Assembly (NCBI GenBank): GCA_949130485.1
Contig: OX422184.1
Coordinates: forward strand, 10,299,996 to 10,363,995
Length of the DNA stretch: 64,000 nucleotides
Direction: 5' to 3'
Source: Agelas oroides
Taxonomy: Eukaryota; Porifera; Demospongiae; Agelasida; Agelasidae
Made by a program: the position numbers and the translations under genes. The number at the start of each line of letters is the position of its first letter. The first letter of the stretch is position 1. Under the pieces are notes generated by a model, which made no database searches, had not been told where the DNA came from, and was given only the letters and a program-made list of their open reading frames with translations. Positions 3,774 to 58,118 of the stretch are shown here, one piece after another.

Positions 3774-3842
3774 GTTGTAACTAACAATTTCATCCCTGAA
3801 ACAGGCAATATTTGACCAAACCAGACAAATTAGGTATCAAAC
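3774..3842. repeat. Solo arm of 4.2-kb foldback
   Basis: ATTTCATCCCTGAAACAGGC through ACAAATTAGGTATCAAA matches the arms of the palindrome at 4,231-4,363, here without its inverted partner. Confidence 0.75.
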
Positions 3843-4230
3843 AGTCTGCCATCAAAACAAGTCTGGTTGCAGCTATGCGACTTCGTTCATGGAGGACCAG
3901 CACGGAACGTGTGCGTAAGCTGTTTACGCCGCTGCGATGAAAGCATGCGCACAAATATGTGTGTACATAAATCGCTATTTCAGGCGCTCAAGAGTTCACC
4001 AGTTGTCTTCCTTGTGATGTCACCCCACTTGCTGTTCTTCCAGCCTTATTACCTTCTCTCTTGGAAATTCGAAGTCAGCTGGCTTAGGAAATGCATACGT
4101 GACAGCCAAAAATTGGATGCAATACTCCGTGAGCCATGTAGCTACTATGGCTCTTCTTCTGTCCCAAAATGGCCTCAGAAGCAATCTCAGAACATCTAAA
4201 AATTTCCACTAATTATCAACTGTAACACCT
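3843..4230. other. Gene-free stretch
   Basis: A 110-codon frame covers 3,867-4,199 but shows no recognisable motif. Nothing else was seen. Confidence 0.35.
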
Positions 4231-4363
4231 TTTGTAACAACCTCATCCCTGAAACAGGCAAAACTTGACCAAACCAGACAAATTAGGTATCAAAGAGTTG
4301 ATACCTAATTTGTCTGGTTTGGTCAAGTATTGCCTGTTTCAGGGATGAAATTGTTAGTTACAA
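4231..4363. repeat. Near-perfect palindrome (~62-bp arms)
   Basis: The left arm (TTTGTAACAACCTCATCCCT to GGTATCAA) and the right arm (TTGATACCTAATTTGTCTGG to AGTTACAA) are almost exact inverse copies separated by about 5 nt. This is a foldback/MITE insertion. A solo arm lies 400 bp upstream. Confidence 0.85.
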
Positions 4364-7467: not shown

Positions 7468-7560
7468 AAAGCGCAATGGCTAACAAAATGGTGATCGTAG
7501 AGTTCCAGGGGCACTCTAGAATCGTAACCTTTCAAGAAAGCGAACTATGCACCAAAATGC
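7468..7560 (+). other. Possible 5' exon before the satellite
   Basis: ATG at 7,465-7,467 opens a frame reading MANKMVIVEFQGHSRIVTFQ and then ESELC before the satellite unit begins. The composition looks protein-like, but I recognise no family. It may be the first exon of a gene whose later exon lies beyond the satellite at 9,465-9,711. That link is inference only. Confidence 0.25.
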
Positions 7561-9480
7561 CAATATCGGAGGTACATGCATGTTGGCCACCCAAGTATTT
7601 GTATGGACTGCTTCATTTGAGTGTTGATCATGAACGTAGAGGTAGATTTTTGCATTCCCTTCAACATCTACGATCATGATCAACACTCAAATCTAGAAGG
7701 CCATACACATACTTGGGTGGACAACATGCATGTACCTCCGATACTGCCATTTTGGTGCATAGTTTGATATTCGATTAGCTTTATTTGCTCATACCATCAC
7801 CAATCCAATCCATGAATAAACTAAAAATCTTGGTTTTAGCATTCCCTTCAACCTCTACGTTCACGATTAACACTCAAATCAAGCAGTCCATACACATACT
7901 TGAGTGGCCAAGATAGATGTACCTCCGATATTGGCATTTTGGTGCATAGTTTGATATTCGGTTAGCTTTGTTTGGCTTATACCATCACCAATCGATGAAC
8001 AAACTCAAAATCTTGGTTTTAGCATTCCCTTCCACCTCTACGTTCACGATCAACACTCAAATCAGGCAGTGCATACACATACTTGGGTGGCCAACATGCA
8101 TGTACCTCCAATATTAGCATTTTGGTGCATAGTTTGATATTCGGTTAGCTTTATTTGGCTCATATCGCCACCAATCCATGAACAAACTCAAAATCTTGGT
8201 TTTAGCATTCTCTTCCACCTCTACGTTCATGATCAACACTCAAATCAAGCAGCCCATACACATACTTGGGTGGCCAACATGCATGTACCTCCGTTGTTAT
8301 ATTCGGTTAGCCGTCACCAAACCATGAACAAACTGAAAATCTAGGTTTTAGCATTTTACGTTCACGATCAACACTCAAATCTAGAAGGCCATACACATAC
8401 TTGAGTGGACAACATGCATATACCTCCGATACTGCCATCTTGGTGCACAGTTTGATATTCGATTAGCTTTATTTCCTCATACCGTCACCAATCCAATCCA
8501 TGAACAAACTAAAAATCTTGGTTTTAGCATTCCCTTCAACCTCTACGTCCACGATCAACACTCAAATCAAGCAGGCCATACACATACTTGGGTGGACAAC
8601 ATGCATGTACCTCCGATACTGCCATTTTTGTGCATAGTTTGATATTCGGTTAGCTTTATTTGCCTTATACCGTCACCAACCCAATCCATCAACAAACTAA
8701 AAATCTTGGTTTTAGCATTCCCTTCAACCTCTACGTCCACGATCAACACTCAAATCAAGCAGGCCATACACATACTTGGGTGGCCAACATGCATGTACCT
8801 CCATATTGGCATTTTGGTGCATAGTTTGATATTCAGTTAGCTTTAGTTGGCTCATACCGTCAGCAATCCATGAACAAACTCAAAATCTTGGTTTTGGTTT
8901 TAACATTCCCTTCCACCTCTACGTTCATGATCAACCCTCTACGTTCATCATCATACACAAACTTGGGTGGCCAAAATGGTGCATTGCTATATTCGGTTAG
9001 CCGTCACCAAACCATGAACAAACTAAAAATCTAGGTTTTAGCATTTTACGTTCACGATCAACACTCAAATCTAGAAGGCCATACACATACTTGAGTGGAC
9101 AACATGCATGTACCTCCGATACTGCCATTTTGGTGCATAGTTTGATATTTGGTTAGCTTTGTTTGGCTCATACCGTCACTAATCCAATCCATGAACAAAC
9201 TAAAAATCTTGGTTTTAGCATTCCCTTCAACCTCTACGTTCACGATCAACACTCAAATCAAGCCGGCCATACACATACTTGGGTGGCCAACATGCATGTA
9301 CCTCCGATATTGGCATTTTGGTGCATAGTTTGGTATTCGGTTAGCTTTATTTGGCTCATATCGTCACCAATCCCTGGTGTTGGTTTTAGCATTCCCTTCC
9401 ACCCTCTACAATCATGATCATACACAAACTTGGGTGGCCAAAATGGTGCATTGTTATATTCAGTTAGCCGTCACCAAACC
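7540..9480. repeat. ~185-bp satellite array, first unit inverted
   Basis: About ten units share GCATTCCCTTCAACCTCTACG, GATCAACACTCAAATCAAGC, ACATACTTGGGTGGCCAACA, TGCATGTACCTCCGATA and TTGGTGCATAGTTTGATATT. Typical spacing is about 185-190 bp, with shorter internally deleted units near 8,290-8,345 and 8,920-9,045. The block at about 7,540-7,650 carries the same motifs in the opposite orientation, so the array starts head-to-head. Minus-strand frames inside it are repeats of one another, not genes. Confidence 0.9.
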
Positions 9481-46333: not shown

Positions 46334-47317
46334 TCAATCATTGTAACCACTGTGCATGATCCAGCCTAAACATTTTTCATGGGTAACACTTTCAAAAGCA
46401 CTTTTAAGGAGGGGTATAGGATCGTCCATTATTTGAAGAATCTCATCATGATCCTTCAGATAGTACTTAATGTAACTGAACATCTCTTCTGCTGGATTCA
46501 GATCTGGGCTGTAGGGTGGTAAAAAAAGAACCAAAATCCCAGCTTCCCTGAACAAATCTACTGCAAGTTCTACGTGATGTATGGAACAGTTATCTAGAAT
46601 TGCAATCGACTTGGCATTCTGCCCATCAAATGGTAGCATTTCTGGTATTAATGATCCCCGTATGAAGTCCATGAATTTTTCACCATCTACTGTTCCTTTA
46701 GTAAGGTCCAATGCTACCAAACCACTAGATGCCAGTGCAGCAATTGCAGAGATACGCTGCCCTCGGTGAAGTAGACGGTGATACACTGGCCGCTCTCCCT
46801 TTAATGCATAGCCGAATTTTCGTACTTGGTCCCTTCTGTCACAGCCGGTTTCATCTATCCATACCAACTGTTCTTTGTTGTATAACTGTACTTCAGCTAA
46901 AAATTTTCCACGAAACTCCACTGACCTTTGCAGAGCGACCTGCTGCACTTTCTTTCTTGTCAACCCATGCCTGTGAATAATCCGGCAGGCAGTAGATACA
47001 GACACTTCAATACCAATAATGTCAATGACTTTCTGACAGATCTCACTGAGGTACAGGCTTGGGTTGTCAAAGAGCAGTCCAATGACAATTAGCTCTTCAT
47101 GACCATTGAGAGACCTTGTTTCTTCTCTAGATGGTGTTGTAGAGTCCACTTCTCCAGTAGCCTCAAAGAGCTTGCAGATATTGTACACTGTACCAACAGA
47201 AATACTTAAATTGGTAGCAATAGCGCGGAAGGACAGTTGCATGCCAACTCTTTGCCACACTATCCGCCAGCGGATATCATGAGAGTAGGGGGCCTTTCGT
47301 CCTGGCTCTGCAGACAT
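46334..47317 (-). CDS. Tc1/IS630-type DD34E transposase, intact
   Basis: A 327-residue single-exon protein. The N-terminal part has two HTH segments (YSHDIRWRIVWQRVGMQLSF and IATNLSISVGTVYNICKLFE, then VSTACRIIHRHGLTRKK) that would bind the inverted ends. The catalytic core is complete: Asp in QLVWIDETGCDRRD (~172), Asp in SIAILDNCSIHH (~243) and Glu in YSPDLNPAEEMFSYIK. There are 34 residues between the last two, the DD34E spacing of Tc1-like enzymes. It performs cut-and-paste transposition at TA. No stop or frame break is seen, and the length is normal for the family. The start at 47,317 (MSAEPGRKAPYSHD) lies about 65 bp inside the right inverted end. It converges on the second gene, with 210 bp between stop codons. 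Confidence 0.95.
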   Translation of the reverse strand: MSAEPGRKAPYSHDIRWRIVWQRVGMQLSFRAIATNLSISVGTVYNICKLFEATGEVDSTTPSREETRSLNGHEELIVIGLLFDNPSLYLSEICQKVIDIIGIEVSVSTACRIIHRHGLTRKKVQQVALQRSVEFRGKFLAEVQLYNKEQLVWIDETGCDRRDQVRKFGYALKGERPVYHRLLHRGQRISAIAALASSGLVALDLTKGTVDGEKFMDFIRGSLIPEMLPFDGQNAKSIAILDNCSIHHVELAVDLFREAGILVLFLPPYSPDLNPAEEMFSYIKYYLKDHDEILQIMDDPIPLLKSAFESVTHEKCLGWIMHSGYND

Positions 47318-47429
47318 CCTTCTAACTGCTTACTGAGACACTTGTATTTCCCGCCCAATATCATAGTCCATGTCACGGAAACGGAACGGAATCAACGGGA
47401 TGTTCAAACGCAACTGAAATCGACTGTAA

Positions 47430-49017: not shown

Positions 49018-49063
49018 TTATTGATTTGACAAATACATGTACACAAACATAAATCATTTTCAG

Positions 49064-51149
49064 TCTTGTTCTGTCGAACAGATGTCAGACACACTTGAGA
49101 ACCTGGCAAAGAAAGAAAAATGGATAGTAACTGTCACAGCACCAGAATTTGGATACATATACAAAGGGCTTGGTACAAGCACAGCAGACCTACTATTTGC
49201 ACTAAACTCATTACTAAGAAGGTGGAGTGAGGTCATAAAAAGTACACCAGGAGCTACAGTTAACTACACTGACCTACTCAACATAAGCATTTCTGGTGGG
49301 GCATTTTATGTCAAAACAACCACATGCACCTGCAAGACTTCAGGAGAAAGCAACTGCCTAAATCGTGTAGAACACAGGCTAGCAACACAGGCAAGGATTA
49401 TCGCATCTAATCTACGTAATCCAAAATATGGAAAAGGTCAAAGGCGGAAAATCTACCTTGACAAAATGTACCAACTAGCAATTAAGTCAAGTGAAGTGGT
49501 CTCTATACAATCGCTCTTGGGAACAAATGTCACTGAAGTAGTACAAAATGTTGAAAACATGCTACAGTGGAAACAAAAGTACACAGACCTCGTTGGTGCC
49601 ATTAGAGTGCTTCATGCAGATGTCTGTAGCAATATGCAAACAAAGCATGACAGCAACACATCAGAACCTACTGATTTATTGCAGGATATACAGTACTGTA
49701 ATGACGAACTCAGAAACTTTGTTCTTGGGTGCACTTCCCGTTCCAAACACAAATTCACAGAGCTTTCAAAGCGCCAGCAACAACGAAGGCTTAAACAACT
49801 AAAAAACAAATGTGAAATAGTGTCTTGGTTTGCAAATACTTTAGATCTTGACATCACTACGCTGAAAGTAAAGCCTAGTGACAGTGATCAAGAACATGTT
49901 CTCATTGACAGCAAAGCATCGACTTCAAAAGGTGATTCCCAAACATCCAGGACACAAAATGAAAAAGCTACTAAACTTTTAGAGAGCATTCTCTACATTC
50001 TGGACAAATTTTCTGTTGGAGATGCTTTTTATCATGAGCTATCAATGTTAAACGAAGGTTTGCCACGCTCATACCTAATTAAACAATGCCGGAATCAGAC
50101 AAATTGAACTAGAGTTTTTTTTGGGTGGAGACTACAAATTTCTATTATTAGTATGTGGGCTTAGTGGTGCAACCTCTAATTATGCCTGTCTATATTGTAA
50201 AGTTCACAAAGATCAACGATGGGACACCTCTAAGGATCGAGCTTACTATAATCAACCTCCCCTGGCCAGATCACTTCACGAGCTAAGGAATCCCCCAAAG
50301 ATGAACTACTGTGCTGTAAACAAGCCCCTTTTTGATATTCCACTAACTCACATTGTGGTAGATGAATTGCACTTGCTTCTTAGGATCACTGACATCCTAA
50401 CTCGAAACTTGGTTGAAGAGTGCCTAGAGTGGGATGAACATGAAACAATAACCAAAGGAGCAATAGCTCCTACAAGACGATATCATGTGAAAGAGTTGAC
50501 AGACACTATCTCGAGTTGTGGTGTTACATTCAATGTATGGGAGAAACTAAATGAAAATCGTCAAGGAACTGGAAAATATGAATACACTAGTCTTATGGGC
50601 AGAGACTAGAAAAGGGTACTTGAAAGACTACCAGAGAAATTATCCAACATTCTCCATGCAGAGACAGAATCAACTGTCCAAAAGCTATGGGTTGACTTCA
50701 AAAAGCTTTATTCATTTCAAACAAATGCCCATCCCGACACCACAAAGCTTGAGGAATACTTTCAGGATGCCAAAAAATGGATTGATACATTTGTCTCCCT
50801 TTCACACTCTCGTCGTTTGTACAAACGATCAAACATCACTCCATACATGCATATTATGGTTTATCACGTACCGGAATTTATAGAGAAGTACAAAAGTTTG
50901 AAGGTGTTTAGTGGACAATCTCTTGAAAAGACAATGGACCTAACACGGCGAGCTTTCATGCTCAAATCTAACAAACATGATCCTGAAGCAGATGTACTCA
51001 AATATGACAGACGCCAAAGTATGCTTTCAAAACGGGAGCGAAAGCCACGAAGTTATGTGAAGCATGACACTGAGTACTGGAACACCAAAAAATGCAAAAC
51101 AGTGAATGAAGAAACACATACCTCTTCAATCACGCAGCAGTCTTCGTGA
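49064..51149 (+). pseudogene. Unclassified C/D(2)H-type DDE transposase, copy 2
   Basis: This is the fuller copy of the family also seen at 5.3-6.3 kb. Coding probably starts after a TTTTCAG acceptor at 49,063. The first 347 codons (to 50,107) include a helical basic region (LSKRQQQRRLKQLKNKCEIV, SWFANTLDLDITTLKVKPSD) and end at FYHELSMLNEGLPRSYLIKQ. In the next frame follow LEFFLGGDYKFLLLVCG (second Asp), YACLYCKVHKD (Cys pair), IPLTHIVVDELHLLLRITD (D-x2-H) and, after one in-frame TAG near 50,607, ITPYMHIMVYHVPEFIEKY and VFSGQSLEKTMDLTRRAF (likely Glu). It ends RKPRSYVKHDTEYWNTKK. The block with the first Asp (GDGT in copy 1) is missing at the 50,105 junction, so this copy cannot be active. 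The Cys pair plus D-x2-H arrangement is that described for P, hAT, Transib and related cut-and-paste transposases. Confidence 0.75.
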
Positions 51150-53122: not shown

Positions 53123-53132
53123 CTATGTAAAA
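53123..53132. repeat. MULE target-site duplication, left
   Basis: CTATGTAAAA immediately outside the left inverted end. The same ten bases occur at 58,109-58,118. Confidence 0.95.
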
Positions 53133-53173
53133 GGGATTCGCTTTTTTCACAGCGGTTCATGTGGTCACGTGCG
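53133..53173. repeat. MULE left terminal inverted repeat
   Basis: Forty-one bases, identical to the reverse complement of 58,068-58,108. Confidence 0.97.
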
Positions 53174-53312
53174 AAGAATAACCCCTACAGCACTACGCTA
53201 ACGCTAGAAATAAACAGGATCTGAGTGCGAATTTACAATGACTGAAAGAGTGGTCACGCAGGACGACGGTGGTAGGAATACCTTGAATGCCAATAGTAAG
53301 GTACAAATAAGT

Positions 53313-53410
53313 CTTTTTATAACACAAACAATATAAAAGTCTATAACACAAACAATATAACAGTCTATAACACAAACAATATAACAGTCTATAACACAAA
53401 CAATATAAAA
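53313..53410. repeat. 24-bp tandem repeat in MULE 3' region
   Basis: About four copies of TCTATAACACAAACAATATA plus ACAG, just downstream of the MULE gene's stop codon. Confidence 0.9.
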
Positions 53411-53424
53411 GATGTACAGACAAA

Positions 53425-53977
53425 CTATATAATACAGTAGTGATGAACACTTTGGTTGAGAGGAGGCTCATCTAATGGATAATCTCCATGTTGTGATAAA
53501 ATACAGTCATAGTGGCATCCTCTGACATTAAGAAGCTCAATGTGGTTTAGACGAGACAGCTGTTTGGGTGGTGGATCTTGGGATGGAAAAGTAAGCCTAT
53601 CCCCACGGAGAGGATTATAACGGAACCATTTGTAGGTATTCACATTGGGAATTAGGGTGAATACAGGAATTTGAAGGAGCGACGCTGTTGCTAGTATCTC
53701 AACTGCTGTGCCCCACACCCTTGTACATCTCATATTAGACAAGTATCTTTCAAAGTCACCATCAATGTACGGTCTGAAGCTATCTCGGTTCTGCGAGACA
53801 AACTGGACCAATAGCTCACGTACTTTCTCATGGCACATTTCATTGCCATACAACACAAAAGCAAGGGCACGGAACAAGCAATTTCCATCTCCAGAGATAG
53901 GTTTGACTTTGCAATCCCTTGCAGATAGAGAAGCTATTGCTTGCTGAAGAGGATCCTGTGGATGAATTGAGATCACT
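53425..53977 (-). other. OTU cysteine-protease domain of MULE protein
   Basis: The last exon encodes VKPISGDGNCLFRALAFVLY, with the Asp and nucleophile Cys of OTU proteases. It continues with HEKVRELLVQFVSQNRDSFR, WGTAVEILATASLLQIPVFT and VRGCHYDCILSQ with the catalytic His. Length (~165 residues) and block order are those of OTU deubiquitinases. It could remove ubiquitin from the transposase or from host proteins (inference). Confidence 0.9.
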
Positions 53978-56900
53978 CTGTATAATATTAGATCCCATGT
54001 TTACTGTATGTTTTACACACCTTATCTCCTATCTGCTGTGTAGCTGGAGCAGGCCCTGAGGTTACAGCAGGCTTCATCTGATGAGATCCTAAGAAGACGA
54101 TGTATTCAACACAAAAGTGATTCAGTCAGGTATGTTATATCCTTACCTTGTGATTCTTCCACAGATGTTAACCCAAGACATCTACGTTTAGCACAGCACT
54201 GCTTCAGTGTACCATGTCCCCCAAACTTTGGCTTGTCGAGGCAATATTTGCATTTGCTACAGTCTGTACAAAGGCATCCTTCACAGGTGCCACAGCGCTT
54301 CCTCTTCATCCCTATGATCATAGTTACAGAAGTACGTATGATAATTTGTTGTCTGCTGTCTCTGCTTGCATAAATCATACCTGTGTGTGGTTTAGTGGGC
54401 TCACTCTTCCCTTGTACATTGTCACAGGGGCTTGGCAGACAACCAGTGTCAGACAGAGAGGTTGATTTGCTGGAGACTGCAAGTGCCTATACAAAGGTAT
54501 GAACAGATATCTTCATGTTGGATGTGAGTGAATCCTTGTTGTTTGTTGCTTAGCAACTAAAACAAGTGAGTAGATGTGATACTGAACTAGCAAGATACTG
54601 GCATGAAATACCAGGCCTAGCAAAAAAAGATTTCACTGTAGATGTAAGGAAGACTTTAGCCACAAGCATGCACCCAGTGTAGATATACGCATACCTTCCG
54701 CAGCTTGCTGGCTCGAATCCCAACACGATTCCTGAACTTGGAGTTCATTCTTTTTCGTCCATGTCTCTTGGGATTTGGTAGGGAACCATATCCAAGTTTC
54801 AGCTTTGAAGAGATTGACTTGTATTTCTTCTTTGTGCGAAGTGCTTGTTTTTGTGTTTGGGTAGCTGTCAAAAGGAGTCCATCCTGAGAAGGAAGTTTCT
54901 CTTGGAACATCTCAGTGATGTCATGTATCGATGACTGCAAGTTCATCAACATTTCTGCATCTGTACACACATATGACAATGTTTCGAGTCTTTTGAGCGC
55001 AATGCGAACCTTCTGACCGGCTTTCTCCACACTAACAGACCTTGCCTGGGGTGAAAGGTGAGCACCATACAGACATGTTATCAGCAACATTTTTATGTCA
55101 TAATAATCATCAAACTATCATAAAGATGGCATTTTCAATCAAACATGTAAAAGGACATACCTGAACATGACCGGCAATACCAACAATTAAATGTTTGTAC
55201 TGTTTGCCCACACAAATTACTACCTCCAGCCAGCCCAATTTTAACATACACAAAATCATAATGATGTACATGTACATTATAACACATACTTTAACTTGCA
55301 GATTTTGTGTAGACTGTTGTATCAGTTCAGCATTATGGACATCGTTGTCATCATTCAGATTGAGAACAGGAGATCCATCAAAATGCTTCTTCAGAGCCTC
55401 AACATCAGTTGATAAGTATGGGCTGTGAAGATAGCTCGGTGGTAGGTTACTCCACTGCCATGCTGACCTGTGCTTGAAGATGGCGAAAAAGTGTTTACAC
55501 GGTATGTGCCAATTTGTCCAGTCTTGACATGTGCATGAGGGCATAGAATCTGGGTTGTCATTGCCAAAGCTGACTCTGTATTTAGCACCAGATGATTTCA
55601 TAATTTCAAATATTCCCTTCTCCTGATCATTGTCAATAATGTTACTGGCTGTGAGCTTGTGGCTTCTTGCCATCCTGTCAAGACAATGCAGAATGATGTT
55701 TCTGGGTCTGTCCCGGAGGTAATCAGGCACAAAGTCATTGTAGGTTCGGTACATAGATGTTTGTTTATAGTTTTGCAGCAAGTACTTTTGATAGGCTGTT
55801 GGCAAGTAGTCTTCAACAAGTAGAGTTGTGATGGCAGAGACAGTTGCCCTCTGTTTGTTGCGAGGAAGTTGTACTTGAAGAGCTTATTCTGAGCTTCTAT
55901 GCCGTTGTTTGTATTGACGGCAGCATGGTACACAGAATCACGATAGGCATGTGCCCATCTCTGCAACATGAATGGATACAATCAAGGTAGAATTTGGTTT
56001 ACACTAATGACCATGCATGTCCCTGGGTTTTGTCCACCTATAAGTAAACCCAAGGAGAGCCCATAGAACCTTGTGCTCTAACACATAACACTAGATATGG
56101 AGCTTTTGTCTCCATGGTAACATGTTTACATTGCTACTGGGTTGCTAATTGGTATGTGGTCAAGAAGCCAGCCACATAATTACATTCATATGCACATCAT
56201 GTAGGTACCTGTGATATGGAAGCCATGTTGTTGATAACCACTGCTGGACACATGGGTGATCTTTCCACACCTTTGAATGTTTGAGGTGCCGTACTGATTC
56301 TTCGTAGCAGATGCCAATATTTTCACCCTCTTTTCCATGCACAAGCCCGCAGCTCAGCCAGGAGTTGGTCCGCTTCCTCTGATGTCAGGCCATGTTTCCC
56401 ATCTTTGACCCACCTTTCCCATGCCTGTTCACGATGGAAGTCACAGAGGTAAACGATTGTGTCTGGAAAACAGCATTCAAGAGCAGATATCTCAGCATCT
56501 GAGTAATCACACATCCAAAACTTTGGATTCCATTCTGGATTCCAGCAATGTAGAATATGCAGTGCCTCAGAGATGCTTTCTGTACTTTCTGATTCCAGAA
56601 TAAATTCTGCAACAACAGAGTAGCCAACATTGGTACGAACGCACACAAAGAATAGTGGAAGCTCATATCTTGTGGTTTTATGTGTAGCATCAATTAGGGA
56701 AATGGTGTTCCCATACTTCAAAATTAGGTCTTTTTGCCATTTTTGCTGGTGAATCCAGAGAAACGAGTTTTCCTGTGACTGTTTAGCTGTAGGGCCATCA
56801 ACTTCACCTTTTTTACTTTCAGCAGCAGTGCTGTTGCAGTCACTGTCAATGCAGCGTGGACGGAAGAAGAAGTTTGCATCAGGATGAGTTTTCTTCCAGT

Positions 56901-57842
56901 TGAGGACCTTTAGTCTGAGGTTTTCTTGGTCGTATTTTGAATGTTGTAGAGCTTGTTTTGCTCTGTATATATGATTCCTCAAGTCATCATGTGTTGGGAA
57001 GTATGCTCGATCATTTGGGTCTGGTGGGGAATCTTTGCAGAGGTAGTGGTTGATGCGATGTCGAAGTGACTTTTTCACATCATCAATTTCAGTAATACCA
57101 TCTGCAACTAACTCAGCTATCATTTGAGCTACAGCTGGGTTAACCTTCTGTGAGAAAACTGCAGCCTGTTTCACTGGGTGTGCTTTCTCATGTGCCTCTA
57201 CTGTTGGCAAAGATAACCAGTATCTTGTCGTCTGCTTGATGCATCCAGATTCGATTTCATTCTGCAATTTCTTCAGTGTTTGTTCCTTTAGGAGTCGCAG
57301 GTTGTATTTGCTCTTCCCCTCAATATCATCAGGGTGTATAGCATACTCTGGGAATAGAGTGTAGTGTTTGACGACAACATGTGCAGGGCATCCAATTTTA
57401 CGTGTGCTTTGCAAACGTAATTGTTTTCCTTTCTTTGGTTTGGATTTATAGTACTGAGGACCATACTGGCATTGGAGATGCTGGCTGTCTCCTACAATAA
57501 AGGGTGTATTTCCAAACTCCACTGTAGTATTCCCTTGTTTGTAACTCCAGTATATTCTGGGCTGAGGTTTCTGTAAAAAATTAACACCATATGTACTGGC
57601 TAGTATTCAATCTACATGTACAACTGTACCTTTCTGCCATCTTGAGTTTCATCATTCTCCTTGTGCTCTAGCTGTGAGTGACATCTCCTGCTGGAATTAC
57701 GCACACCGAAAGATGTGACTGTCTCCTTGTAGTATTCCTCCAAGACTGCTGGTGCATCATTGACAAAGCCTTCAAAGTACAGTCCAACTTGATGCAAACC
57801 TGCAGCCCACCTTGGAGCCATCTCTGATACTTGTGCACACAT
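53425..57842 (-). CDS. MULE transposase-SWIM-CXXC-OTU fusion gene
   Basis: Exons on the minus strand are 57,842-57,630, 57,570-56,209, ~55,958-55,290, 55,045-54,695, 54,486-54,381, 54,311-54,147, 54,088-~54,021 and 53,977-53,425. Phases match at nearly all joins and introns can be as short as 59 bp. The product is about 1,160 residues. The MULE core has Asp in ISLIDATHKTTRYELPLFF (~360), Asp in FWMCDYSDAEISALE with CDFHREQAW, and Glu in NTNNGIEAQNKLFK. A SWIM finger CTCQDWTNWHIPCKHFF follows, then a basic helical linker, a CXXC finger (~900-945) and an OTU protease domain (~985-1,150). Start choice is the first in-frame ATG after a CAG acceptor near 57,854; a 5' non-coding exon is likely. Two single-base frame changes, near 56,340 and 55,870, interrupt the transposase part and cancel each other in phase. 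Everything else is open. Confidence 0.85.
54147..54311 (-). other. CXXC zinc finger of MULE protein
   Basis: The exon encodes KRCGTCEGCLCTDCSKCKYC, then LDKPKFGGHGTLKQCCAKRR and C. The eight zinc-binding cysteines (CxxCxxC, CxxCxxC and the distal C..C), the KFGG motif and KQ before the distal Cys match the CXXC fingers of CFP1, MLL and DNMT1 that bind unmethylated CpG. One extra Cys lies in the first half and one beside the seventh. Confidence 0.9.
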
Positions 57843-58067
57843 GCCACTGCATACCAAAGAATTTTAATCAATTGTATGCCCAGACGAATGTTTGCATTAC
57901 ATGTTATAGTGTCATTGATGCTATTTACGTTCCACATGTAAGAGAATGATTTCTAGTCTGTCCATCAATACATACCTGGTGGTCAACTTAACAGTCAGCG
58001 AGCACACCGGATCTGTTGGAACTTGCCGCCAGTGCAGTGTTACATACCGGGTTAAACTTGGTAAGTG

Positions 58068-58108
58068 CGCACGTGACCACATGAACCGCTGTGAAAAAAG
58101 CGAATCCC
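58068..58108. repeat. MULE right terminal inverted repeat
   Basis: Exact inverse of the left end. Confidence 0.97.
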
Positions 58109-58118
58109 CTATGTAAAA
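58109..58118. repeat. MULE target-site duplication, right
   Basis: CTATGTAAAA, identical to 53,123-53,132. Confidence 0.95.

Follow-up and report, generated by a model that had tools for sequence, protein, structure and literature searches.

The Cnidaria MULE MuDR-6_HM (Repbase) is tabulated with an Ovarian Tumour Gene entry (PMC6446971) and is thus, like the family that we describe here from the sponge Agelas oroides, an animal MULE with an OTU gene; the table lists neither a zinc finger nor inverted ends for it, and our comparison is with that table entry rather than with the sequence. Phantom and Muta elements of animals are likewise MULE transposases, with target-site duplications of 8-10 bp and in some cases SWIM or FLYWCH domains, but unlike the present family they have no OTU or CXXC in the same table (PMC6446971). 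Fungal DNA transposons with TET/JBP dioxygenases likewise bear a domain of epigenetic type, although they represent other superfamilies, another enzyme, and other organisms, and are described as acting on methylcytosine, not as reading CpG (PMC12730594). VANDAL MULEs with VANC also carry a protein acting on silencing marks (PMC10398659, PMC5735166); VANC is reported to bind element-specific noncoding regions (PMC10398659), whereas in the present family the transposase itself bears a fused CXXC finger. The original prediction had presented an animal MULE combining CXXC and OTU as novel, which overstates the novelty, since an OTU-bearing animal MULE was already tabulated; our literature search found no MULE with a CXXC domain. 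VANC and the VANDAL transposase are, moreover, distinct proteins.

Our window, the whole stretch of 64,000 nucleotides of A. oroides DNA that was analyzed, contains one such element, with the following features:

53133-58108, gene on minus strand: whole element (MULE), from its ends and duplication
53123..53132: left target-site duplication copy, 10 bp, CTATGTAAAA, from the sequence
58109..58118: right target-site duplication copy, 10 bp, from the sequence
53133..53173, plus strand: left 41-bp terminal inverted repeat, 4 CpG, from end comparison
58068..58108, minus strand: right 41-bp terminal inverted repeat, 4 CpG, from end comparison
53318..53413: 24-bp minisatellite past the stop codon, from comparison of copies, among which its repeat number differs
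53425..53955, minus strand: coding exon 8 including stop, OTU (Pfam match 53659-53892; DGNC and HxD motifs)
54021..54088, minus strand: coding exon 7, linker
54147..54311, minus strand: coding exon 6, zf-CXXC (Pfam match 54178-54312, on the unspliced frame)
54381..54486, minus strand: coding exon 5, linker
54695..55045, minus strand: coding exon 4, basic linker, with no Pfam family above cut-off
55290..55960, minus strand: coding exon 3, motif NTNNGIEAQNK with the third acidic residue; SWIM at 55491-55580, a weak Pfam match
56209..57570, minus strand: coding exon 2, ALS2CR8/CARF (56950-57573, unspliced-frame match) and MULE RNase H (56434-56697)
57630..57842, minus strand: coding exon 1 with the proposed start codon

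The two inverted ends are 100% complementary and the 10-bp duplication has no mismatch, just as had been described from the sequence. Between them lies one minus-strand gene with eight modelled coding exons that encode CARF/ALS2CR8, MULE RNase H, SWIM, CXXC, and OTU domains; the longest plus-strand ORF overlapping the element has 109 aa. The zf-CXXC (E-value, 6.5e-13) and OTU (8.1e-15) matches in the window are both well above Pfam cut-offs, MULE is found at 4.9e-10, and the strongest domain, ALS2CR8/CARF (2.8e-29), was absent from the original prediction. In the sister copy L014, PF15299 (CARF) spans the N-terminal part of an open 1161-aa protein and the MULE RNase H transposase domain (PF10551) scores 39.7 bits against a cut-off of 27.6. 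SWIM is below its Pfam threshold (17.1 versus 19.6 bits), but its CxC...CxH motif is there nonetheless. Two Asp residues (D295 and D356) are invariant in eight aligned rows, and exon 3 of the families holds an NTNNGxE motif, whose acidic residue may complete a putative DDE triad with them. A structure model of exon 2 (pTM 0.42) was left unused.

The window copy itself is inactivated and cannot make the full protein. Alignment to its sister copies shows that exon 2 has lost 11 bp near 56338 and 1 bp near 56222 and that exon 3 has lost 4 bp near 55869, each loss shifting the frame; its frame ends ahead of the third acidic motif, and the joined frame meets a stop at residue 487 of 1155, which contradicts the phase-consistent exons ascribed to it. 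Phase consistency is present instead in the sister copies L013, L014, and L017 (1161, 1162, and 1162 codons, stop included). Nine two-ended copies have the same ends and structure, a recurrence that places the window structure beyond chance. These copies are ~98-99% identical, their 10-bp duplications are perfect in five cases and have one or two differences in the other four, and an open frame of 1160-1161 residues through all eight exons is found in 3 of 11 copies checked. All nine two-ended copies retain CXXC and OTU sequence, although the OTU exon is interrupted in L020 and L009 is without exon 7. With six further families showing the same domain order, the reading of the locus as a young MULE in which a single gene includes both CXXC and OTU is supported.

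Those six families of the A. oroides genome have the order CARF-MULE-SWIM-CXXC-OTU on one strand, with transposase exons 46-49% identical to that of the window family and 44-56% identical among all families; the CXXC fingers are 51-70% identical between families. The ends of all seven have GGG...TTCAC in common, and the 10-bp duplication is perfect in five of the other six, read in L058 at the GGG boundary from the flanks, and absent in L053. Around L053, an array of CpG-rich repeats was initially read as long inverted ends, a reading rejected on comparison with L041 and L043, which places the ends further in, at GGGAGACAATTTATTCAC; the array is therefore not counted as element. CXXC stands just upstream of OTU at 56 of 83 OTU loci genome-wide, copies of one family being counted separately, as against at most 2 in 1000 shuffles. 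From this linkage and the shared order, the domain architecture indicates that CXXC-OTU has long belonged to the element and been maintained in it. Linkage within the ends and in other families disfavors a separate host gene for CXXC-OTU. Neither domain lies downstream at 20 of 63 CARF-type loci, and at four C8 loci, perhaps a two-gene form, CXXC-OTU and CARF lie on opposite strands. Between families, the MULE and OTU distances show a weak correlation (Mantel r 0.44, 45/720 permutations; Spearman 0.12), so we claim no congruence of their trees. Viral contigs scanned with the alignment of the transposase yielded 94 matches to its pattern but no relative.

Both domains retain most of their characteristic residues. 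D23 of the OTU domain is invariant in 11 rows and C26 and H148 are nearly so (L050 has Tyr instead of Cys, and L058 ends ahead of the His); we take the three to be the catalytic triad. The OTU structure model (pLDDT 82.4, pTM 0.82) has OTUD3, OTUD1, and OTUD5/DUBA as its best Foldseek matches (E, 6.6e-11 to 3e-10; TM, 0.63-0.67 by query length), and OTUD5 is first among the closest solved sequences. These deubiquitinases are, however, host enzymes, 22-24% identical to the element OTU in the best fold alignments. The ubiquitin editing originally proposed thus has the OTU fold and D-C-H residues behind it and is itself a prediction from them. The cysteine pattern and KFGG-type motif mark the finger as a zf-CXXC domain of the CpG-binding type, with CpG binding predicted. 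In the window family, it shares KFGG and KQ motifs with its best solved matches, KMT2B, KMT2A, and DNMT1 (the KFGG of L014 aligns to KMT2B and KMT2A), which are host chromatin proteins not known to have a MULE or OTU domain. The KFGG position varies in other families (VFGG, RFGG, KFSG, and KYGG), and L049 is without some of the Cys.

The DNA into which these elements have inserted is unusually rich in CpG. Over the 250 bp beside insertions, CpG observed/expected (o/e) is 0.98 in the window family (22 ends), 0.97 in the other families (15 ends), and 1.11 at 16 sites with the same 32-bp end, compared with 0.50 in a control MITE (20 copies) and 0.37 in arbitrary pieces (n = 80); all three element sets exceed the control (P of 5.5e-5, 2.8e-4, and 3.3e-6, respectively), which is a single MITE family and itself a little higher than the arbitrary pieces (P = 0.02). 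Values above 0.6 are found at 36 of 37 insertions, 7 of 20 MITE copies, and 16 of 80 arbitrary pieces. Flank GC is somewhat raised too (0.46-0.48 for elements, 0.45 for the control, and 0.43 for arbitrary pieces), which counts against the proposal of CXXC steering. The CpG signal peaks adjoining the element and declines outward. The target core is AT-rich (36% GC in 30 ten-mers), so the CpG signal is separate from the core target sequence. Given ~98-99% identity among copies, the window-family flanks were probably CpG-rich already before insertion.

These sets were delimited as follows. The 32-bp-end set comprised 17 sites, presumed to be mostly non-autonomous, with one end read per site and L086 dropped for overlapping ends; at one of them (C1:12665192), a CARF match follows on the same strand after 3.6 kb. 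The MITE set was 20 of 40 listed copies, excluding the defining copy at L055, and one copy (L103) has a second MITE copy inside its flank. Twenty arbitrary 1-kb pieces were chosen at round-number places rather than by random draw, L021 was omitted from flank counts, and substitution counts exclude positions 4 or fewer bases from a gap. Inverted repeats at window positions 3789-4349 and 7548-8129 were rejected as controls because they are satellite-like, and a third candidate was rejected with only 5 matches. The comparison is with one MITE family and arbitrary pieces, so that CXXC is a candidate cause of the bias. As far as we are aware, maize Mu and Pack-MULEs have no CXXC; that maize Mu nonetheless favors gene starts bears against CXXC steering.

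Within the elements, CpG is distributed unevenly. The terminal 100 bp have a CpG o/e of at least 0.76 at 13 of 14 ends, the exception being one L058 end, and the bodies are depleted (0.26-0.47; L014 introns, 0.09). This depletion and the share of CpG transitions in element copies (22 of 63 transitions) point to methylation of the element once it has inserted. The self-targeting put forward in the original prediction agrees with CpG-rich ends in the seven families, but the insertion DNA is CpG-rich too, which makes host-site choice at least as likely. Copy number was searched for three flanks: two are high-copy repeats (431 and 399 candidates at first look; 40 were scored and all matched), and the window flank is low-copy. 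The targets may therefore be CpG-rich repeats rather than promoters, and we hold promoter targeting with lower confidence.

We propose, at a probability of about 0.5, that this is a recently active MULE family whose single gene encodes a CXXC finger that steers integration to CpG-dense non-methylated DNA and an OTU domain that removes ubiquitin. Generic MULE behavior would also place insertions in accessible CpG-rich DNA, as maize Mu and Pack-MULEs prefer gene 5' ends and cluster near gene starts (PMC7337890), with CXXC binding the element's own ends or keeping it unmethylated in the manner of the VANC proteins of Arabidopsis VANDAL elements, which reportedly bind the sequence of these elements and clear silencing marks (PMC10398659). 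CpG-rich ends on depleted bodies accord with the former role, while CpG transitions suggesting methylation after insertion would make any protection incomplete, and two of the three searched targets are high-copy repeats rather than obvious promoters. We regard this explanation as a serious contender, if one that we would not expect to prevail.

Insertions might instead simply persist in young CpG-rich repeats without any aiming, a bias that is compatible with the other readings and fits both the two high-copy flanks and the repeat matches within the examined DNA in 14 of 53 element flanks versus 1 of 40 arbitrary pieces. The control MITE, however, is found in repeats at a similar rate (5 of 20) and has lower CpG, and flanks without a detected repeat are equally CpG-rich (0.98, n = 27; 1.16, n = 12), although that test is weak, having missed a repeat at L081; we think survival bias improbable as the explanation. 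Far less credible still is that CXXC and OTU are captured host-gene passengers of the Pack-MULE kind with no element function. MULEs are indeed described as prone to acquiring host gene fragments (PMC6446971), but one-strand order is the same across seven families so divergent in their transposase exon, and catalytic and zinc-type residues are mostly retained.

Under the steering model that we favor, the CARF-type N terminus would probably bind the element's ends, and the DDE/RNase H core with the SWIM finger would cut and join. The CXXC finger would dock the complex of transposase and element on CpG-dense DNA that is not methylated, choosing the landing site, and may additionally hold the CpG-rich ends. 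OTU, at a guess, could strip ubiquitin from the transposase or from site proteins, leaving the complex stable or the chromatin open; CpG targeting by CXXC is the more likely half of the proposal. More tentatively, we advance the general claim that a transposase-fused reader of non-methylated CpG aims integration and an attached OTU edits ubiquitin, in a module kept across at least seven families of one genome.

CARF (ALS2CR8), a host transcription factor in vertebrates, has PF15299 in common with the N-terminal part of the transposase, and its regular presence in these transposases may bear on the origin of host CARF genes. Even without steering, one MULE lineage has retained its CXXC-OTU tail while diversifying deeply within a single genome. 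The proposal, if true, would describe a natural CpG-directed, ubiquitin-editing fusion. Because its copies lie in unusually CpG-rich DNA, the element may read the host methylation landscape to choose where it lands, and if CXXC does steer integration, it would be a transposon-encoded link between that landscape and the landing place of mobile DNA.

The element at 53133-58108 is a new variant of MULE, and the window copy of it is broken. Its two 41-bp ends are 100% complementary and the 10-bp duplication CTATGTAAAA flanks it on either side, so that the identical inverted ends and perfect target duplication of the original prediction were borne out. A search of the genome (259 Mb, 141 contigs; the window is C2:10299996-10363995) with the element's first 121 bases gave 42 matches from the 40 of 51 candidates scored; 11 span the full 121 bases at an identity of at least 98%, and in 17 the exact match is limited to the first 32 bases. 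From 14 stretches retrieved around the stronger matches came nine copies, the window's counted in, in which the two ends and a 10-bp duplication can be recognised. The duplication is intact in the window, L009, L010, L013, and L020, whereas in L012, L014, L015/16, and L017 its two sides differ at one or two positions. Because these copies are ~98 to 99% identical to the window copy and each aligned row of the family carries 5 to 23 substitutions against the column majority, we infer that the family is young, as had been proposed. L021 is more divergent (92 to 95% identity to the window copy), and L011, L018/19, and L022 are partial or interrupted. In L013 (5431-5552), the element end is present as an 81-bp tandem duplicate, which looks like a piece of another copy joined on. 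At the 17 sites with the shorter match (L079-L095), the outer 32 bp of the family's ends are followed by divergent sequence that mostly goes on as CGGTTACG; a single end was read per site, except at L086, and these are presumed to be non-autonomous elements.

The gene model is a predicted one, its exon borders taken from reading frames and splice signals alone. In the copy L014, on the minus strand, it comprises eight coding exons, seven GT-AG introns, and 1161 residues, with the following Pfam matches:

Residues 70-278, minus strand: ALS2CR8/CARF (1.3e-28)
Residues 346-443, minus strand: ZSWIM1-3 RNase H-like
Residues 364-451, minus strand: MULE (7e-10)
Residues 908-952, minus strand: zf-CXXC (1.2e-11)
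Residues 1007-1084, minus strand: OTU (5.2e-14)

SWIM falls under the Pfam cut-off in the window and is absent from the L014 matches at E ≤0.1, but its motif, CxC-x(n)-CxH, is present despite the low score. Phase-consistent exons had been predicted to link the MULE core, SWIM, CXXC, and OTU; these exons do exist, but the reading frame of the window copy is no longer intact across them. It ends at residue 487 of 1155, beyond an 11-bp deletion near 56338, and two more deletions, one of 1 bp near 56222 and one of 4 bp near 55869, also shift the frame. The frame was checked in L014 and 11 other aligned rows (the window, L009, L010, L012, L013, L016, L017, L018b, L019, L020, and L021; L018b and L019 are pieces of a single copy). 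It is also open to the end in L013 and L017, L018b is an open fragment, and all remaining rows have earlier stops.

Elsewhere in the window, three adjacent open reading frames lie at 49025-51146 on the plus strand, the last of which (50610-51146) shows a weak similarity to the C-terminal region of RAG1 (Pfam 7e-4, short of the cut-off; E 0.16 to RAG1 in the PDB); the stretch may be a disrupted element of RAG1-like or Transib-like type. An open 331-aa DDE_3 transposase (46337-47329, minus strand; Pfam 1.3e-27) has 125 genome matches, the best other full-length one at 67% identity. One satellite-like repeat occurs at 7548-8129 and in both orientations over C2:8.1-10.6 Mb, with all of the matches listed on contig C2; another, at 3789-4349 with a period of ~180 bp, is dispersed over many contigs.

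The CXXC-OTU tail is old and maintained. Genome searches gave 86 matches for OTU, 69 for ALS2CR8, and 106 for CXXC (E ≤0.01). Counting copies of one family separately, 56 of 83 merged OTU loci have a same-strand CXXC within 2.5 kb upstream (1000 shuffles averaged 0.15 and never exceeded 2), and 36 of 63 CARF-type loci have both domains within 9 kb downstream (CXXC only, 4; OTU only, 3; neither, 20, which may be fragments or CXXC-less elements). All six further families (L053 to L058) keep the order CARF-MULE, SWIM, CXXC, OTU, as read from segments, ten of which were run against Pfam; L057 has a single stop within the OTU part, and L058 has one within the MULE exon and an incomplete OTU. Identity between families is 44 to 56% in the transposase exon, 51 to 70% in CXXC, and 34 to 49% in OTU (six families). 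Their ends have GGG...TTCAC in common, and the 10-bp duplication is perfect in all of the six but L053; for L058, it was read with GGG taken as the element's boundary. On contig C8 (4896852-5262722), four places carry CXXC-OTU on the plus strand and CARF on the minus strand, separated by 5 to 9 kb; they may represent a form of the element with two genes, or a locus that was duplicated.

The CXXC finger matched 23 distinct solved sequences, the best being KMT2B, KMT2A, and DNMT1; its KFGG and KQ motifs are common to KMT2B and KMT2A in the alignments, and the KFGG position varies in other families. Sequence matches to the OTU part include OTUD5, OTUD1, and OTUD3, and a model built on 11 sequences (pLDDT 82.4, pTM 0.82) has OTUD3, OTUD1, and OTUD5/DUBA as its closest solved folds. 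The Asp-Gly-Asn-Cys and His-x-Asp motifs are conserved across families, with the Cys missing in L050. PMC6446971 lists an Ovarian Tumour Gene entry for the cnidarian MuDR-6_HM, and the main text of that paper makes no mention of CXXC. OTU, CXXC, and ALS2CR8 are absent from the main text on arthropod MULEs (PMC13359780), as are OTU, CXXC, and CARF from PMC10027918. Among the open-access papers listed that concern MULEs or transposases together with any of OTU, CXXC, and ALS2CR8, or CXXC in relation to transposons or integration, no title or abstract opening describes the fusion. Nearest in spirit are VANC (PMC10398659) and the fungal TET/JBP transposons (PMC12730594).

Insertions lie beside CpG-rich DNA. 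In 500-bp flanks, mean CpG observed/expected is 0.80 for the window family (12 insertions), 0.81 for other families (6), and 1.00 for 16 of the 17 sites with 32-bp ends, against 0.38 in 20 arbitrary 1-kb pieces (P 8.6e-5, 7.3e-4, and 1.1e-6). A 363-bp MITE at L055:7790-8152, which ends in TAGTCTCGG and is flanked there by a 9-bp duplication (452 first-look genome candidates, 40 scored), served as control through 20 of its 40 listed copies. At 250 bp, the three element sets reach 0.98, 0.97, and 1.11, each above the control's 0.50 (P 5.5e-5, 2.8e-4, and 3.3e-6), which slightly exceeds the 0.37 of 80 pieces from 20 arbitrary stretches (P 0.02). Per insertion, averaging two ends wherever both were retrieved and taking one for each control copy, 36 of 37 elements exceed 0.6, versus 7 of 20 control copies (P 4.6e-7) and 16 of 80 arbitrary pieces. 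Flank GC is somewhat higher at elements (0.46 to 0.48; control, 0.45; arbitrary, 0.43). Across the 37 insertions, the window, L018, and L058 have a 74- to 95-bp flanking piece in common and one pair shares 39 bp, and no further similarity was found among these flanks. Of the ten-mers at target sites, 14 come from elements with two ends and 16 were read on one side; they are AT-rich and weakly palindromic.

Some targets are themselves repeats. The flanks of L014 and L081 are high-copy, since they drew 431 and 399 first-look candidates, of which all 40 scored in each case matched (at 96 to 100% and 87 to 100%); the window element's flank is low-copy. Against 360 kb of retrieved sequence, repeat matches turned up for 14 of the 53 flanks of elements, 5 of the 20 flanks of the control, and one of the 40 arbitrary pieces. 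In this test, which missed the L081 repeat, element flanks free of a match are equally CpG-rich (0.98, n = 27; 1.16, n = 12), and such control flanks stay low (0.43, n = 15). The targets are therefore CpG-dense DNA, in part repeats; promoters are not proven. A preference for the starts of genes is described for maize Mu and Pack-MULEs (PMC7337890).

Within the elements, bodies are CpG-poor (0.26 to 0.47; in L014, introns 0.09 and coding parts 0.34). Copies look to have been methylated after insertion, because 25 of the 102 substitutions counted over ten rows fall at CpG positions (22 of the 25 being transitions), with just 81 CpG among 4951 alignment columns. The terminal 100 bp are CpG-rich, at least 0.76 at 13 of 14 ends and 0.27 at one L058 end. 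The main rival for the finger's role is that it binds the element's own ends, or that plain accessibility explains the insertion sites. Most likely, the CXXC finger serves in choosing targets, and would select CpG-dense, non-methylated DNA as the landing site.
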